Shown: in pieces, positions 18,166 to 56,074 of the stretch
Layout of the letters: each line of letters begins with the position of its first letter
Position numbering within the stretch: the stretch's first letter is position 1
Assembly (NCBI RefSeq): GCF_029167375.1
Contig: NZ_JARFTP010000004.1
Span: 124,001-188,000 of the forward strand
Direction: 5' to 3'
DNA length: 64,000 nucleotides
Source of the DNA: Tsukamurella sp. 8F
GTDB lineage: Bacteria > Actinomycetota > Actinomycetes > Mycobacteriales > Mycobacteriaceae
Notes under the pieces: model-generated
The model's database searches: none
Told to the model about the DNA's origin: nothing
What the model saw: only the letters and a program-made list of their open reading frames with translations
Program-made: the position numbers and the translations under genes

Positions 18166-21790
<3,625 letters not shown>

Positions 21791-53229: not shown

Positions 53230-54186
53230 ATGGCAGATGTTTTGGTCCTCGTCGAGCAGGTCGACGGGACGCTCAAGAAGATCACGGCCGAGCTACTGAC
53301 CGCCGCCAAGGTGCTCGGTGAGCCGGCGGCGGTGGTGGTCGCCGCACCCGGCACCACCGACAAGCTGGCGGATCAGCTCAAGGCTGCGGGCGCGGCGAAG
53401 ATCTACCGCGCCGAGTCCGACGACGCCGAGTCGTACCTGGTGACGCCTAAGGTCGACGTCCTGCAGCAGCTGGTGGAGAACCAGGGCGCTGCGGCCGTGC
53501 TGACGGCGGCGAACGTGGAGGGCAAGGAGGTGTCGGGCCGACTCGCGTACAACCTCGGTTCGGGCCTGCTCGTCGATGTCATCGAGGTCAAGCCCGGCGG
53601 CGCCGGTGTGCACTCGATCTTCGGCGGCGCGTTCACCGTGGACGCGCAGGCGGGCGGCGATGTGCCGGTGTACTCGCTCCGCCCCGGTGCGGTCGAGGCC
53701 GACGGTGTCGCCGGTGCCGGCGAGATCGTCGACGTCACGTTCCCCGAGGTTCGCGAGAACGCGGTGAAGATCACCTCGAAGCAGCCCATCGAGGGCGGCT
53801 CCCGCCCGGAGCTGACGGAGGCGTCGATCGTCGTCTCCGGTGGCCGCGGTGTCGGCTCGGCGGAGAAGTTCTCCGTGGTCGAGGAGCTCGCCGACTCCCT
53901 GGGTGCCGCCGTGGGTGCATCGCGTGCCGCGGTCGACTCGGGCTTCTACCCCGGCCAGTTCCAGGTCGGCCAGACCGGTAAGACGGTCTCGCCGCAGCTC
54001 TACATCGCGCTGGGCATCTCGGGTGCGATCCAGCACCGCGCCGGCATGCAGACCTCGAAGACGATCATCGCCGTCAACAAGGACGACGAGGCTCCGATCT
54101 TCGAGATCGCCGACTACGGCATCGTGGGTGACCTGTTCGACGTCGCCCCGCAGCTGACCGAGGCGGTCAAGGCCCACAAGGGCTAG
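53230..54186 (+). CDS. etfA: Electron transfer flavoprotein subunit alpha
   Basis: A 318-residue protein with the C-terminal FAD domain signature [51 protein letters not shown] and [20 protein letters not shown]. It heterodimerises with EtfB and binds FAD. A good Shine-Dalgarno AAGGAGG lies 11 bases before ATG. A long perfect terminator follows 12 bp after the stop. Confidence 0.97.
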
Positions 54187-54197
54187 CCGACACCTCG

Positions 54198-54240
54198 ACG
54201 CCGAACCCCCGACCTCGCCCCGAGGCCGGGGGTTCGGCGT
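54198..54240 (+). terminator. Intrinsic terminator of etfBA
   Basis: ACGCCGAACCCCCG pairs exactly with CGGGGGTTCGGCGT, and the inner CCTC/GAGG extends the stem around a CGCCCC-like loop. It ends four bases before the first palindromic repeat, so the repeat is not needed as a terminator for etfA. Confidence 0.9.
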
Positions 54241-54243
54241 TCG

Positions 54244-54294
54244 TGTGCAGAAATGGCAGCCGGATCGAGGCGGATCGGCTGCCATTACTGCACA
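54244..54294. repeat. Palindromic repeat P1 (left flank of the DUF559 gene)
   Basis: Two 19-base arms, TGTGCAGAAATGGCAGCCG and CGGCTGCCATTACTGCACA, are complementary except at one position, around a 13-base loop (GATCGAGGCGGAT). The 47-bp core (54246-54292) is repeated at 55212-55258 in the same orientation with one difference (A/T). The loop is not symmetrical, so orientation can be defined. Confidence 0.92.
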
Positions 54295-54324
54295 TACCCC
54301 GGTTCGAGGGATCCGGGCACGGGG

Positions 54325-55203
54325 ATGGTGCGTCTAACTGATGTGGAGGAAGTGCATGCGGTCACGGCGACCGGCCGGCTGGTGGCTGAGGTGGGACGCT
54401 ATTCCGCTCGGACCCGATTCCGGAGCGTCACCTACGGCGTCCGCGGCCCGCTCCTCGAAGACCCGCACGCCTCAGGCGAATGGCAGCAGTTGGCCGAGGC
54501 GATCGTCACCGTCTGCCCGCAGGCCGTGCTGTGCGGGTGGAGTGCTGCGCGTCTGCTGAACCATCCGATGGCCGGCTCTCGCGACCGGCTCGAGGTGTGG
54601 ACGCCGCGTCAGATGCGGCGCGCCGGCGTCGTGCGGCGCGCGGCCGAACTCCCCAGCGGTGACACGACCGTTCGTCGAGGTCTGCCGTGTACGAACGCGC
54701 TGCGCACCGCGATCGACTTGGCACGTTACGAAGCGGGTGACGAGGCGATCGCCGCGTTGGACCAGTGTCTGCGGCGCAGGCGGGGCTACCGCGCGGACGT
54801 GACCGAAGATCTCATCGCCGGTTACATCCGCGAGCACCGCCCGTGGCGTGGCACCCGGGTCCTGCAGGTACTGGCCGAGGCCGACGGCCGCGCGGAGTCG
54901 CCGTGGGAGACGTTCACGCGTCTGACCCTGCATCGCGGGGGCCTGACATCCTTCGTCCCGCAGGTCCCGGTGCTGGGCGGCACTTACCGCCTCGATCTGG
55001 CCGACGAGGATCGCAGGGTGGGCGTCGACTACGACGGCGCCTACCACCGCGACGCGGATCAGCACGCAGCGGACGTCGAGCGGTGGAACGTGCTGCAGTA
55101 CGACTTGGGCTGGGACCTGGTGCTTGTCACCGCCGGTCCGCTGACGAACGACCGTGCGACGTTGCTGCGGCGCGTGCGCACGGCGATGGCCGCGCGCGCC
55201 TGA
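54325..55203 (+). CDS. DUF559-type protein with Vsr/restriction-nuclease-like fold
   Basis: A 292-residue protein. The N-terminal part (VCPQAVLCGWSAARLLNHP) recalls AbiEi-antitoxin-like domains found in actinobacterial DUF559 proteins. The C-terminal part has the nuclease-like pattern D224 (LDLAD), then VD235-Y-D237-GAYH241 and a final ERWNVLQYDLGWDLVLVTA strand-helix-strand, as in Vsr-like DUF559 domains. The ATG at 54325 is preferred; an ATG at 54253 lies inside the left palindrome and would only add translated repeat. It is bracketed by two directly repeated palindromes, ending 4 bases before the right one. Activity is unknown. Confidence 0.82.
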   Translation: MVRLTDVEEVHAVTATGRLVAEVGRYSARTRFRSVTYGVRGPLLEDPHASGEWQQLAEAIVTVCPQAVLCGWSAARLLNHPMAGSRDRLEVWTPRQMRRAGVVRRAAELPSGDTTVRRGLPCTNALRTAIDLARYEAGDEAIAALDQCLRRRRGYRADVTEDLIAGYIREHRPWRGTRVLQVLAEADGRAESPWETFTRLTLHRGGLTSFVPQVPVLGGTYRLDLADEDRRVGVDYDGAYHRDADQHAADVERWNVLQYDLGWDLVLVTAGPLTNDRATLLRRVRTAMAARA

Positions 55204-55207
55204 CATC

Positions 55208-55262
55208 CGGTTGCAGTAATGGCAGCCGGATCGAGGCGGATCGGCTGCCATTACTGCAACCG
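55208..55262. repeat. Palindromic repeat P2 (right flank of the DUF559 gene)
   Basis: Two perfectly complementary 21-base arms (55208-55228 and 55242-55262, ending CTGCAACCG) flank the same 13-base loop as P1. The core matches P1 at 46 of 47 positions. It starts 4 bases after the DUF559 stop and ends 1 base before the convergent gene's stop codon, so it could also work as a bidirectional terminator. Confidence 0.92.
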
Positions 55263-55263
55263 A

Positions 55264-55995
55264 TCACGCCGCGAGCCACGCGTCGAGGTCCGGGCCGAGG
55301 AGTTCGGCACCGTCGCGTGCCAGCAGGATGCCGCGGCTCAGGCCGGGCAGCGCGGCAGGCACCGATTCGACAGGGCGCTCGTCGCCGTGGGCGGCGAGGA
55401 CCCGCGCGGTGAGCTCGGGCAGCGCGATCGCCTCGGGGCCGGCGATCGAGCGGGCGGCGCCGCGTGTGCCGCACTCGTCGACCAGCACCCGCGCCACGGT
55501 CTCGGCCGCGATCGGCTGCACCAGCCAGTCCTGGACCGTGACGCGGTCATCGGTGAACGACACGGCCGCGGGATTGGTAGCGAACTCGAACCACTGCGCA
55601 GACCGCACGATGGTCGAGGAGACACCGCTCTCGCGGATGATCCGTTCCTGCTCGCGCTTCGCCAGGTAGTAGGCGAAGCCGTCGAAGTCGGGAAGGTCGA
55701 TTCCCTCGATCGACAGATGCACGAGATGGGCCTCGGCTGCGGCACATGCTGCGACGACGTGACTGGTGGCGATCGCGAACGCCTCGACGACGTCCTGGTC
55801 GGGATCGGTGGGGAAGGCGTTGGAGGCGTCGATCACCGCGTCCACTCCCTCGAGCGCCGCAGCCAGCCCGGCGCCGGTATGCAGATCCACCCCGGTCGAG
55901 CGCGATATCTCGACGACCTCGTGTCCGGCTCGTCGTGCTGCCGCGGTGGTGAGCGAGCCCGCGGTTCCAGTTGCTCCGATGACGGCGATTCTCAT
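55264..55995 (-). CDS. NmrA-like NAD(P)-binding oxidoreductase (atypical SDR)
   Basis: A 243-residue Rossmann protein: [19 protein letters not shown] gives the GxxGxxG dinucleotide motif, and [21 protein letters not shown] and the [23 protein letters not shown] region (shown in part) follow the atypical SDR/NmrA pattern. A catalytic YxxxK is present as YLAKREQ-type, but activity is uncertain; relatives act as redox sensors or quinone reductases. It is divergent from iscS with a 79-bp gap. Its stop lies at the edge of P2. Confidence 0.88.
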
Positions 55996-56074
55996 AACCT
56001 GGATACTACATATCCTGATTAAATGCCCGATGGGAAGTCCGTGCGGATGTCGGGCGTTATCCTCCAGTGTGATC

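Follow-up and report, generated by a model that had tools for sequence, protein, structure and literature searches.

A putative REP-like palindromic repeat system associated with an AbiEi-Vsr-like nuclease gene in Tsukamurella

The closest described counterparts of the element treated here are repetitive extragenic palindromic (REP) sequences, the spread of which one account still describes as unresolved, with HUH proteins as the linked enzymes (PMC8266576). Two other systems are relevant for their DNA targets. AbiEi, of the AbiE type IV toxin-antitoxin systems, is reported to bind a pair of 23-bp inverted repeats separated by 3 bp (PMC7319586), and I-Bth0305I, an EDxHD homing endonuclease, is reported to dimerise on a DNA target nearly 60 bp long (PMC3943268). 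A 64,000-nucleotide stretch of Tsukamurella sp. 8F (contig NZ_JARFTP010000004.1, positions 124,001 to 188,000), referred to throughout as the window, contains a gene for a protein with a predicted AbiEi-like part and a predicted Vsr-like nuclease part, enclosed by two palindromes. Comparison with related loci argues that this unit probably belongs to a REP-like palindromic repeat system, the nuclease of which would recognise, spread and homogenise its own palindromes. Among the papers listed by searches of the open-licence literature in PubMed Central, none was seen to connect DUF559 or AbiEi-nuclease genes with palindromes.

The two palindromes share 47-bp copies (54246-54292 and 55212-55258) in the same, direct orientation, identical at 46 of 47 bases and with 13 nt between the arms of each, as a sequence-only reading of the window had stated. 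At full extent the left palindrome (54244..54294) is 51 bp long with 19-bp arms that are 95% complementary (one mismatched arm pair), and the right palindrome (55208..55262) is 55 bp long with perfect 21-bp arms. Their feet are TGCAG/CTGCA. The nuclease gene (54325..55203, plus strand) encodes 292 residues; a spacing of 4 bp, given correctly by the same reading, separates the end of its stop (55203) from the right palindrome. The 12-bp arm core GTAATGGCAGCC, with at most one mismatch allowed, occurs four times in the window, always inside the two palindromes, against a shuffled expectation of 0.10. Both palindromes fold as single-stranded DNA hairpins far above shuffled sequence (z of -9.0 for the left and -9.9 for the right).

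The predicted structure of the protein combines an AbiEi fold and the folds of I-Bth0305I and Vsr, and it is on this prediction that the Vsr-like assignment rests. The AbiEi-like part occupies residues 1-187 (54325..54885, plus strand) and is a plausible palindrome-binding module. The Vsr/EDxHD-like nuclease domain occupies residues 191-292 (54895..55200, plus strand), with E195, D224, H241 and D250 invariant across 29 aligned sequences. A search of Pfam returned MTES_1575 (E 2.8e-6) and DUF559 (E 0.032), both under the curated cut-offs, and a search of NCBIfam nothing useful. The gene had been read from sequence as DUF559/Vsr-like; the Vsr likeness was borne out by the predicted structure, the DUF559 match fell below its cut-off and the AbiEi-like half had been missed. 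The matches of the bracketed gene are to MTES_1575/DUF559, AbiEi and Vsr-like proteins, with no HUH/Y1 tyrosine transposase among them. The ratio of nonsynonymous to synonymous substitution rates (dN/dS) is 0.26 between the window gene and the homolog adjoining etfA in genome G011, and 0.12-0.27 over 10 homolog pairs. Neither a related-locus search from the single protein nor a search of phage sequences for homologs gave a match. Four records matched in a plasmid collection, where the homologs in NZ_LR134451.1, NZ_LR134454.1 and NZ_LR134464.1 (224-416 kb, Tsukamurella tyrosinosolvens) are annotated as DUF559 proteins.

Homolog matches at E <= 1e-5 are present in 15 of 16 Tsukamurella genomes, including that of the window, and profile matches at E <= 1e-10, up to 14 per genome, in 50 of the 61 genomes sampled from the family. 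Flanks were compared at 116 distinct loci, of which the genus search supplied 45 and wider searches the other 71 (Williamsia, Gordonia, Dietzia, Mycobacterium, Kitasatospora and others). These are the best-scoring loci returned rather than every match. Of 155 matched loci (L054 and L055 had no match), 144 remained after requiring flanks of at least 200 bp and removing duplicates, and 28 further duplicates were then dropped. With a threshold of 40 bits for a locus's own pair, the upstream and downstream flanks match each other at 76 of the 116 loci; a check of other DUF559 genes for such flanks had been proposed in the sequence-only reading. Mixed flanks from loci with proteins less than 40% identical reach the same score in only 13 of 10578 pairs, and random spans of similar length do so in 18/600 cases in G015 and 1/300 in the window. 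A threshold of 30 bits was rejected as too lax, being reached by 109/600 random G015 spans. The flanks take the form of a palindrome of about 47-70 bp in many groups, and of inverted repeats of about 70-130 bp at L011-L018. Inverted doublets, also looked for following the sequence-only reading, were not seen as a rule, on inspection without counting. The comparison shows matched flanks, in the usual case palindromes, around the majority of the examined putative AbiEi-Vsr (DUF559/MTES_1575) genes.

Some loci depart from the common form. At L168 (G044) two similar repeats stand in tandem upstream of the gene (-248..-184 and -156..-89) and one downstream (+18..+85). Four remote family members in G005 (L385-L388), none of which appeared at the first search, were recovered by profile search (E 6.9e-10 to 4.2e-7). 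They form a more distant subfamily, in which some members have a longer N-terminal region and matched flanks are present at two of the four loci (61 and 109 bits), so the association with flanks may predate the subfamily studied here. A loop motif common to all types, CNCAGGTC, was considered and not upheld, occurring in 36/91 paired loci and 57/267 control pieces.

The sequence of the palindrome also varies with that of the protein. Over 6509 non-syntenic locus pairs, a flank match of 40 bits or more occurs in 2/425 pairs with proteins less than 25% identical, 12/1590 at 25-30% (14/2015 below 30% overall), 22/2286 at 30-35%, 22/970 at 35-40%, 32/635 at 40-45%, 15/319 at 45-50%, 40/210 at 50-60%, 34/64 at 60-70% and 8/10 at 70-80%. 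At unrelated loci, this comparison shows, the sequence of the palindrome follows the similarity of the protein.

Alternative states of a single site were found between a gene read as encoding an LGFP-repeat protein and its convergent neighbour (the LGFP locus). The arrangement palindrome-gene-palindrome is present in G009, G003, G006 and, with a frameshifted gene, G001. A decayed gene with the left palindrome is present in G012, and a frameshifted gene with extra DNA in G010. As read from the sequence, G015, G005, G014 and G004 (4 of the 16 genomes) carry a solo palindrome at the same place. Neither palindrome nor gene is present in G007, G002, G013 and G008, and the left side of the locus was not found in G011 or in the window's own genome (G000). 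On a three-marker tree, solo and gene-bearing alleles mix within the clade of G001, G003, G005, G009 and G015 (support 0.998); the inner nodes are weak (0.50 and 0.87), so the claim extends to at least one switch in that clade and not to its direction. A second site has a solo in G009, G003 and G012, none in G002, G001, G008 and G004, and other sequence in G015 and G005. A third has the solo in G003 and G015, lacks it in G010 and has other sequence in G002. Comparison of these alleles shows that one site can be empty, hold a solo palindrome or hold the palindrome-gene-palindrome unit, and the existence of sites without a palindrome and of sites with a solo favours the sequence-only reading. 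One candidate empty site, L264 (G009:C66:10729-11296) compared with L231 (G015:C1), was rejected, as the 41-bp gap lies inside the hairpin. At this orthologous solo site the hairpin interior is missing and a short palindrome is left, with flanks otherwise similar.

At the window site, the upstream neighbour of the nuclease gene is etfA (53230-54186), followed by its terminator-like hairpin (54198..54240), which lies outside the element; the left palindrome starts 3-5 bp past this repeat, in agreement with the earlier description. A perfect GC-rich hairpin with 15-bp arms at 19908-19942 is the only further one at that score in the window beyond the etfA terminator and the two palindromes. Downstream, on the minus strand at 55264-55998, an NAD(P)H-binding gene runs convergently to the nuclease gene. 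The gene adjoins etfA in only G000 and G011 among the 16 genomes. No clean empty allele of the etfA-iscS site, as had been proposed for checking, was found, because in the remaining 14 genomes neither the NAD(P)H gene nor iscS was found up to 1.5 kb from etfA; the true downstream sequence of etfA was examined for six of the 16 loci. The G011 records CAJCHX010000839.1 and CAJCHX010000779.1 (L077 and L084) come from a metagenome bin titled Acidobacteriaceae, which is grouped in the genus of the window's genome and has an etfA 86% identical, and the title is probably wrong.

The L011-L017 locus likewise gave no empty allele: seven genomes hold other genes, G011 was unmatched, and G007 has two repeat copies with another gene. 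Among the seven element-bearing genomes only G006 is inverted (L017, G006:C10:49915-53760), the gene being turned relative to its flanks in comparison with L011-L016, with breakpoints inside the terminal repeats. In G007 (L190, G007:C2) terminal repeat copies of this type stand at bases 8-76 and 1395-1465 with no nuclease gene between them. The open reading frame (ORF) that they enclose presumably encodes a DoxX-type membrane protein, and the locus is possibly a non-autonomous or gene-swapped unit. At a gatA-side locus (L186-L200) the nuclease unit alternates across Tsukamurella species with a pair of other ORFs, taken here to encode an Rrf2-type regulator and a carboxymuconolactone decarboxylase.

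Dispersed gene-less palindromes were counted for two types. Type A was searched with the arm CTTTCGAAGCGTTCTGCGA at up to three mismatches, for which the reversed control gave 0-2 matches per strand in all 16 genomes. Eight of the 16 Tsukamurella genomes have 5-12 arms per strand and two more have 3-4, the maximum being in G015 (11 forward and 12 reverse). Thirty type-A loci were fetched, of which six (four distinct palindromes) have a nuclease gene inside the 3-kb locus, 16 (15 distinct) are gene-less hairpins and eight are arm matches without a hairpin. Type B, searched with the arm ATTGAACGACGTTCTGGAG against a reversed control of 0, has forward/reverse counts of 12/12 in G001, 12/13 in G003, 16/16 in G006, 14/14 in G009, 8/9 in G010 and 8/6 in G012, and 0 or 1 arm in the other ten genomes. 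These six genomes are those with a cognate gene at the LGFP locus, whether intact or broken. Related genes at L031, L038 and L040 (G001, G004 and G015) have palindromes that are ATTGAAC-footed yet different. A search of six genomes for the palindrome type of L181 (G073) gave further paired arms in G073 itself, at C78, C107 and C110; in the other five single arms exceed the reversed control, with none 39 bp apart among the matches listed. The window's own genome holds two good copies of the window type and one degenerate solo (G000:C45:42464-42510), and at three mismatches the counts in other Tsukamurella genomes were not above the reversed control among the matches listed. The sequence-only reading had asked for numerous copies, which were found for the two related families and not for the window's own type.

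Shared change is seen in the type-B palindromes of G006. Ten of its sites are orthologous to sites in G009 or G003, with flanks about 80-92% identical; at one of them (L344) the palindrome is turned round. At nine of the ten, L329 being the exception, G006 has the ACACCGTTA arm set, which is the variant flanking its own gene, and the sister genomes have others. This arm set is present in 15/16 G006 palindromes versus 0/22 in G009 and G003 together, and there are 7-10 differences over 40 arm positions at the converted sites. The G006 palindromes were searched with up to three mismatches, at which more distant G006 variants are missed and the variant of the other species is detectable. In G012, the sister of G006 (support 1.0), the ACACCGTTA variant alone occurs among the 14 arms listed, so the change probably fell in the ancestor of G006 and G012. 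Some loops keep site-specific letters, which suggests that replacement was patchy. The LGFP-site palindromes of G015 and G005 have a variant resembling that beside the G015 gene L040. As the comparison of orthologous sites shows, palindromes changed together, in both arms, to the variant that stands beside the resident gene, and the flanks kept their own history. That point mutations arose independently in both arms at nine sites seems implausible, and the simplest cause would be copying from a resident template.

The positions of solos bear on what else the palindromes could be. Forty gene-less type-B regions were fetched and one without a canonical palindrome was dropped. All 39 aligned palindromes are equal in length, with an asymmetric loop, a left foot ATTGAAC and a right foot GTTCAA. 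Covariation of the arms is seen in 62 cells altered on both sides versus 31.6 in shuffles; the pairs with such two-sided change number five, not above shuffles. With a simple codon-usage gene caller, 36 of the 39 are intergenic; random positions are intergenic in 379/5000 cases (7.6%) in the window and 24/1680 in the same loci. The intergenic solos comprise 21 between convergent genes, 15 in tandem and none between divergent genes, and for 33 of the 36 the start lies no more than 20 bp from the 3′ end of a called gene. Dispersed gene-less palindromes of apparently cognate type are shown by comparison to exist for two families and, in the one family sampled, to be nearly always intergenic just past a stop.

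Were the AbiEi-type protein a regulator or nucleoid factor, the palindromes would be operators co-evolving with a shift in its specificity. The left palindrome does stand directly upstream of the nuclease gene, and AbiEi antitoxins are reported to bind inverted repeats and to autoregulate (PMC7319586). This explanation is nonetheless unlikely, as the solos sit behind genes with 0/36 between divergent ones, each of nine sites would need about 7-10 arm substitutions, and autoregulation needs no downstream copy as good as the upstream one. It is similarly improbable that the unit is a small DNA transposon with terminal inverted repeats and the Vsr-like protein as transposase, which would make the solos excision scars or miniature inverted-repeat transposable element (MITE)-like remnants. 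A target-site duplication was not noticed, own pairs align best in direct orientation at 56/91 loci and in inverted orientation at 35/91, both flanks and the solo of type B at the LGFP locus share one orientation, and simple transposition would not give a concerted change of solos. Host sequences beside an ordinary nuclease gene, acting as terminators, mRNA-stabilising hairpins or insulators, would suit the position of the solos at gene ends and the plain GC-rich hairpin read from the sequence in place of the palindrome in the four palindrome-less genomes at the LGFP locus, and yet are likewise improbable, given that TTTT occurs within 15 nt of either end in 0/39 solos, that a separate terminator-like hairpin already precedes the window gene, and that a terminator role leaves unexplained the asymmetric conserved loop, the matching to one protein clade and the joint change of both arms at many sites.

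The preferred reading is the REP-like system with its own nuclease, and the analogy drawn in the sequence-only reading largely holds for the flanks, the solos and the states of the sites. In the proposed mechanism, the AbiEi-like part would bind the arms of the cognate palindrome as a dimer. A palindrome of about 50-70 bp with the fusion protein bound to it as a dimer would fit the reported target sizes of both AbiEi and I-Bth0305I. The Vsr-like domain would then nick or cut at the palindrome, in the form of duplex, cruciform or single-stranded hairpin. Repair would copy another palindrome into the break, by which solo copies would be homogenised and the gene with a palindrome sometimes inserted. 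If the two flanks recombined, the gene would be lost, leaving a solo, or inverted, as at L017. The first arrival of a palindrome at a new intergenic site may be a single-strand or replication-linked step, which is a guess.

Several points weigh against the nuclease-driven system. Concerted change was found mainly in one lineage (G006/G012), and the weak nodes of the tree leave the direction of change between solo and gene-bearing alleles unfixed; loss of the gene by recombination alone would explain these alleles. Unless restrained, the enzyme would cut the two complete palindromes that stand beside its own gene. Type-A solos occur in G002, G005, G006 and G009, in which no type-A gene was found at E <= 1e-5, so the gene is not needed for their maintenance. 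The family of the window palindrome is small. Own-pair flanks fall under 40 bits at 40 of the 116 loci, 25 of which have no pair even at 30 bits, and the rank correlation between flank and protein similarity is weak (0.122, with a maximum of 0.112 in 300 permutations). The lack of a noticed target-site duplication counts here as well.

It is also conceivable, at somewhat less than even confidence, that the system acts as a palindrome drive. The nuclease would recognise its palindromes of about 60 bp across the chromosome and break variants or exposed hairpins, repair would copy the resident palindrome into each site, the family would be rewritten when the specificity shifts, and the gene would home into the sites. 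If true, this would be a further principle, beside transposition and intron homing, for the spreading of short repeats in bacteria. The REP-like reading would give DUF559/MTES_1575 genes a probable role and would constitute a separate origin of a REP-like system, with an enzyme unrelated to HUH proteins. The concerted change between species of dispersed sites of about 60 bp makes the movement and likeness of short repeats directly testable, and cognate pairs of protein and palindrome might serve as sequence-specific DNA tools.

Among known systems, that of REP sequences and their associated tyrosine transposases (RAYTs), including REPtrons and REPINs, is similar in having short palindromes dispersed between genes, with a cognate set beside the enzyme gene (as for types A and B), and in the covariation of enzyme and palindrome. 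The enzyme there is an HUH/Y1 transposase, compared with a predicted AbiEi plus Vsr-like nuclease here. The GTAG/CGTC foot tag is not found in the 39 aligned type-B palindromes or in the window pair, and the hairpins are about 47-70 bp here versus 20-50 bp there. Another difference lies in number, with up to 14 profile matches per genome compared with TnpA_REP, which one account gives as mostly single-copy (PMC8266576).

The EDxHD homing endonucleases, represented by I-Bth0305I, share the predicted nuclease fold and catalytic domain, and the long dimeric target of that enzyme is near the size of the palindromes. Sites with and without the gene exist here too, a pattern that loss of the gene would equally produce. 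The DNA-binding half is AbiEi-like here, no intron or intein was seen, and the gene stands between two complete palindromes rather than interrupting the site, if the palindrome is assumed to be the site. The AbiE systems share the predicted AbiEi fold of the N-terminal part and the binding of paired inverted repeats. This part is fused to a nuclease here, and none of the three tested window neighbours (ETF alpha, NAD(P)H-binding protein, class-V aminotransferase) is AbiEii/DUF1814. The hairpins of integron attC sites are alike at about 60 bp, and the type-B feet ATTGAAC/GTTCAAT agree at 6/7 positions each with what is taken here to be the attC core consensus; such feet are not found in type A or in the window palindrome. 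A search of Rfam with four loci gave no match above the gathering score. TIRtrons are described as having one gene between long matched repeats and moderately abundant repeat families elsewhere (PMC3733652), which resembles the present arrangement, with tyrosine transposases in place of the Vsr-like nuclease. Since it has no HUH transposase, no tag in the palindromes examined, an uninterrupted site and no toxin among the tested neighbours, the element is not filed in these families, and the comparison as a whole suggests a selfish or tamed genetic element of a kind not described so far.
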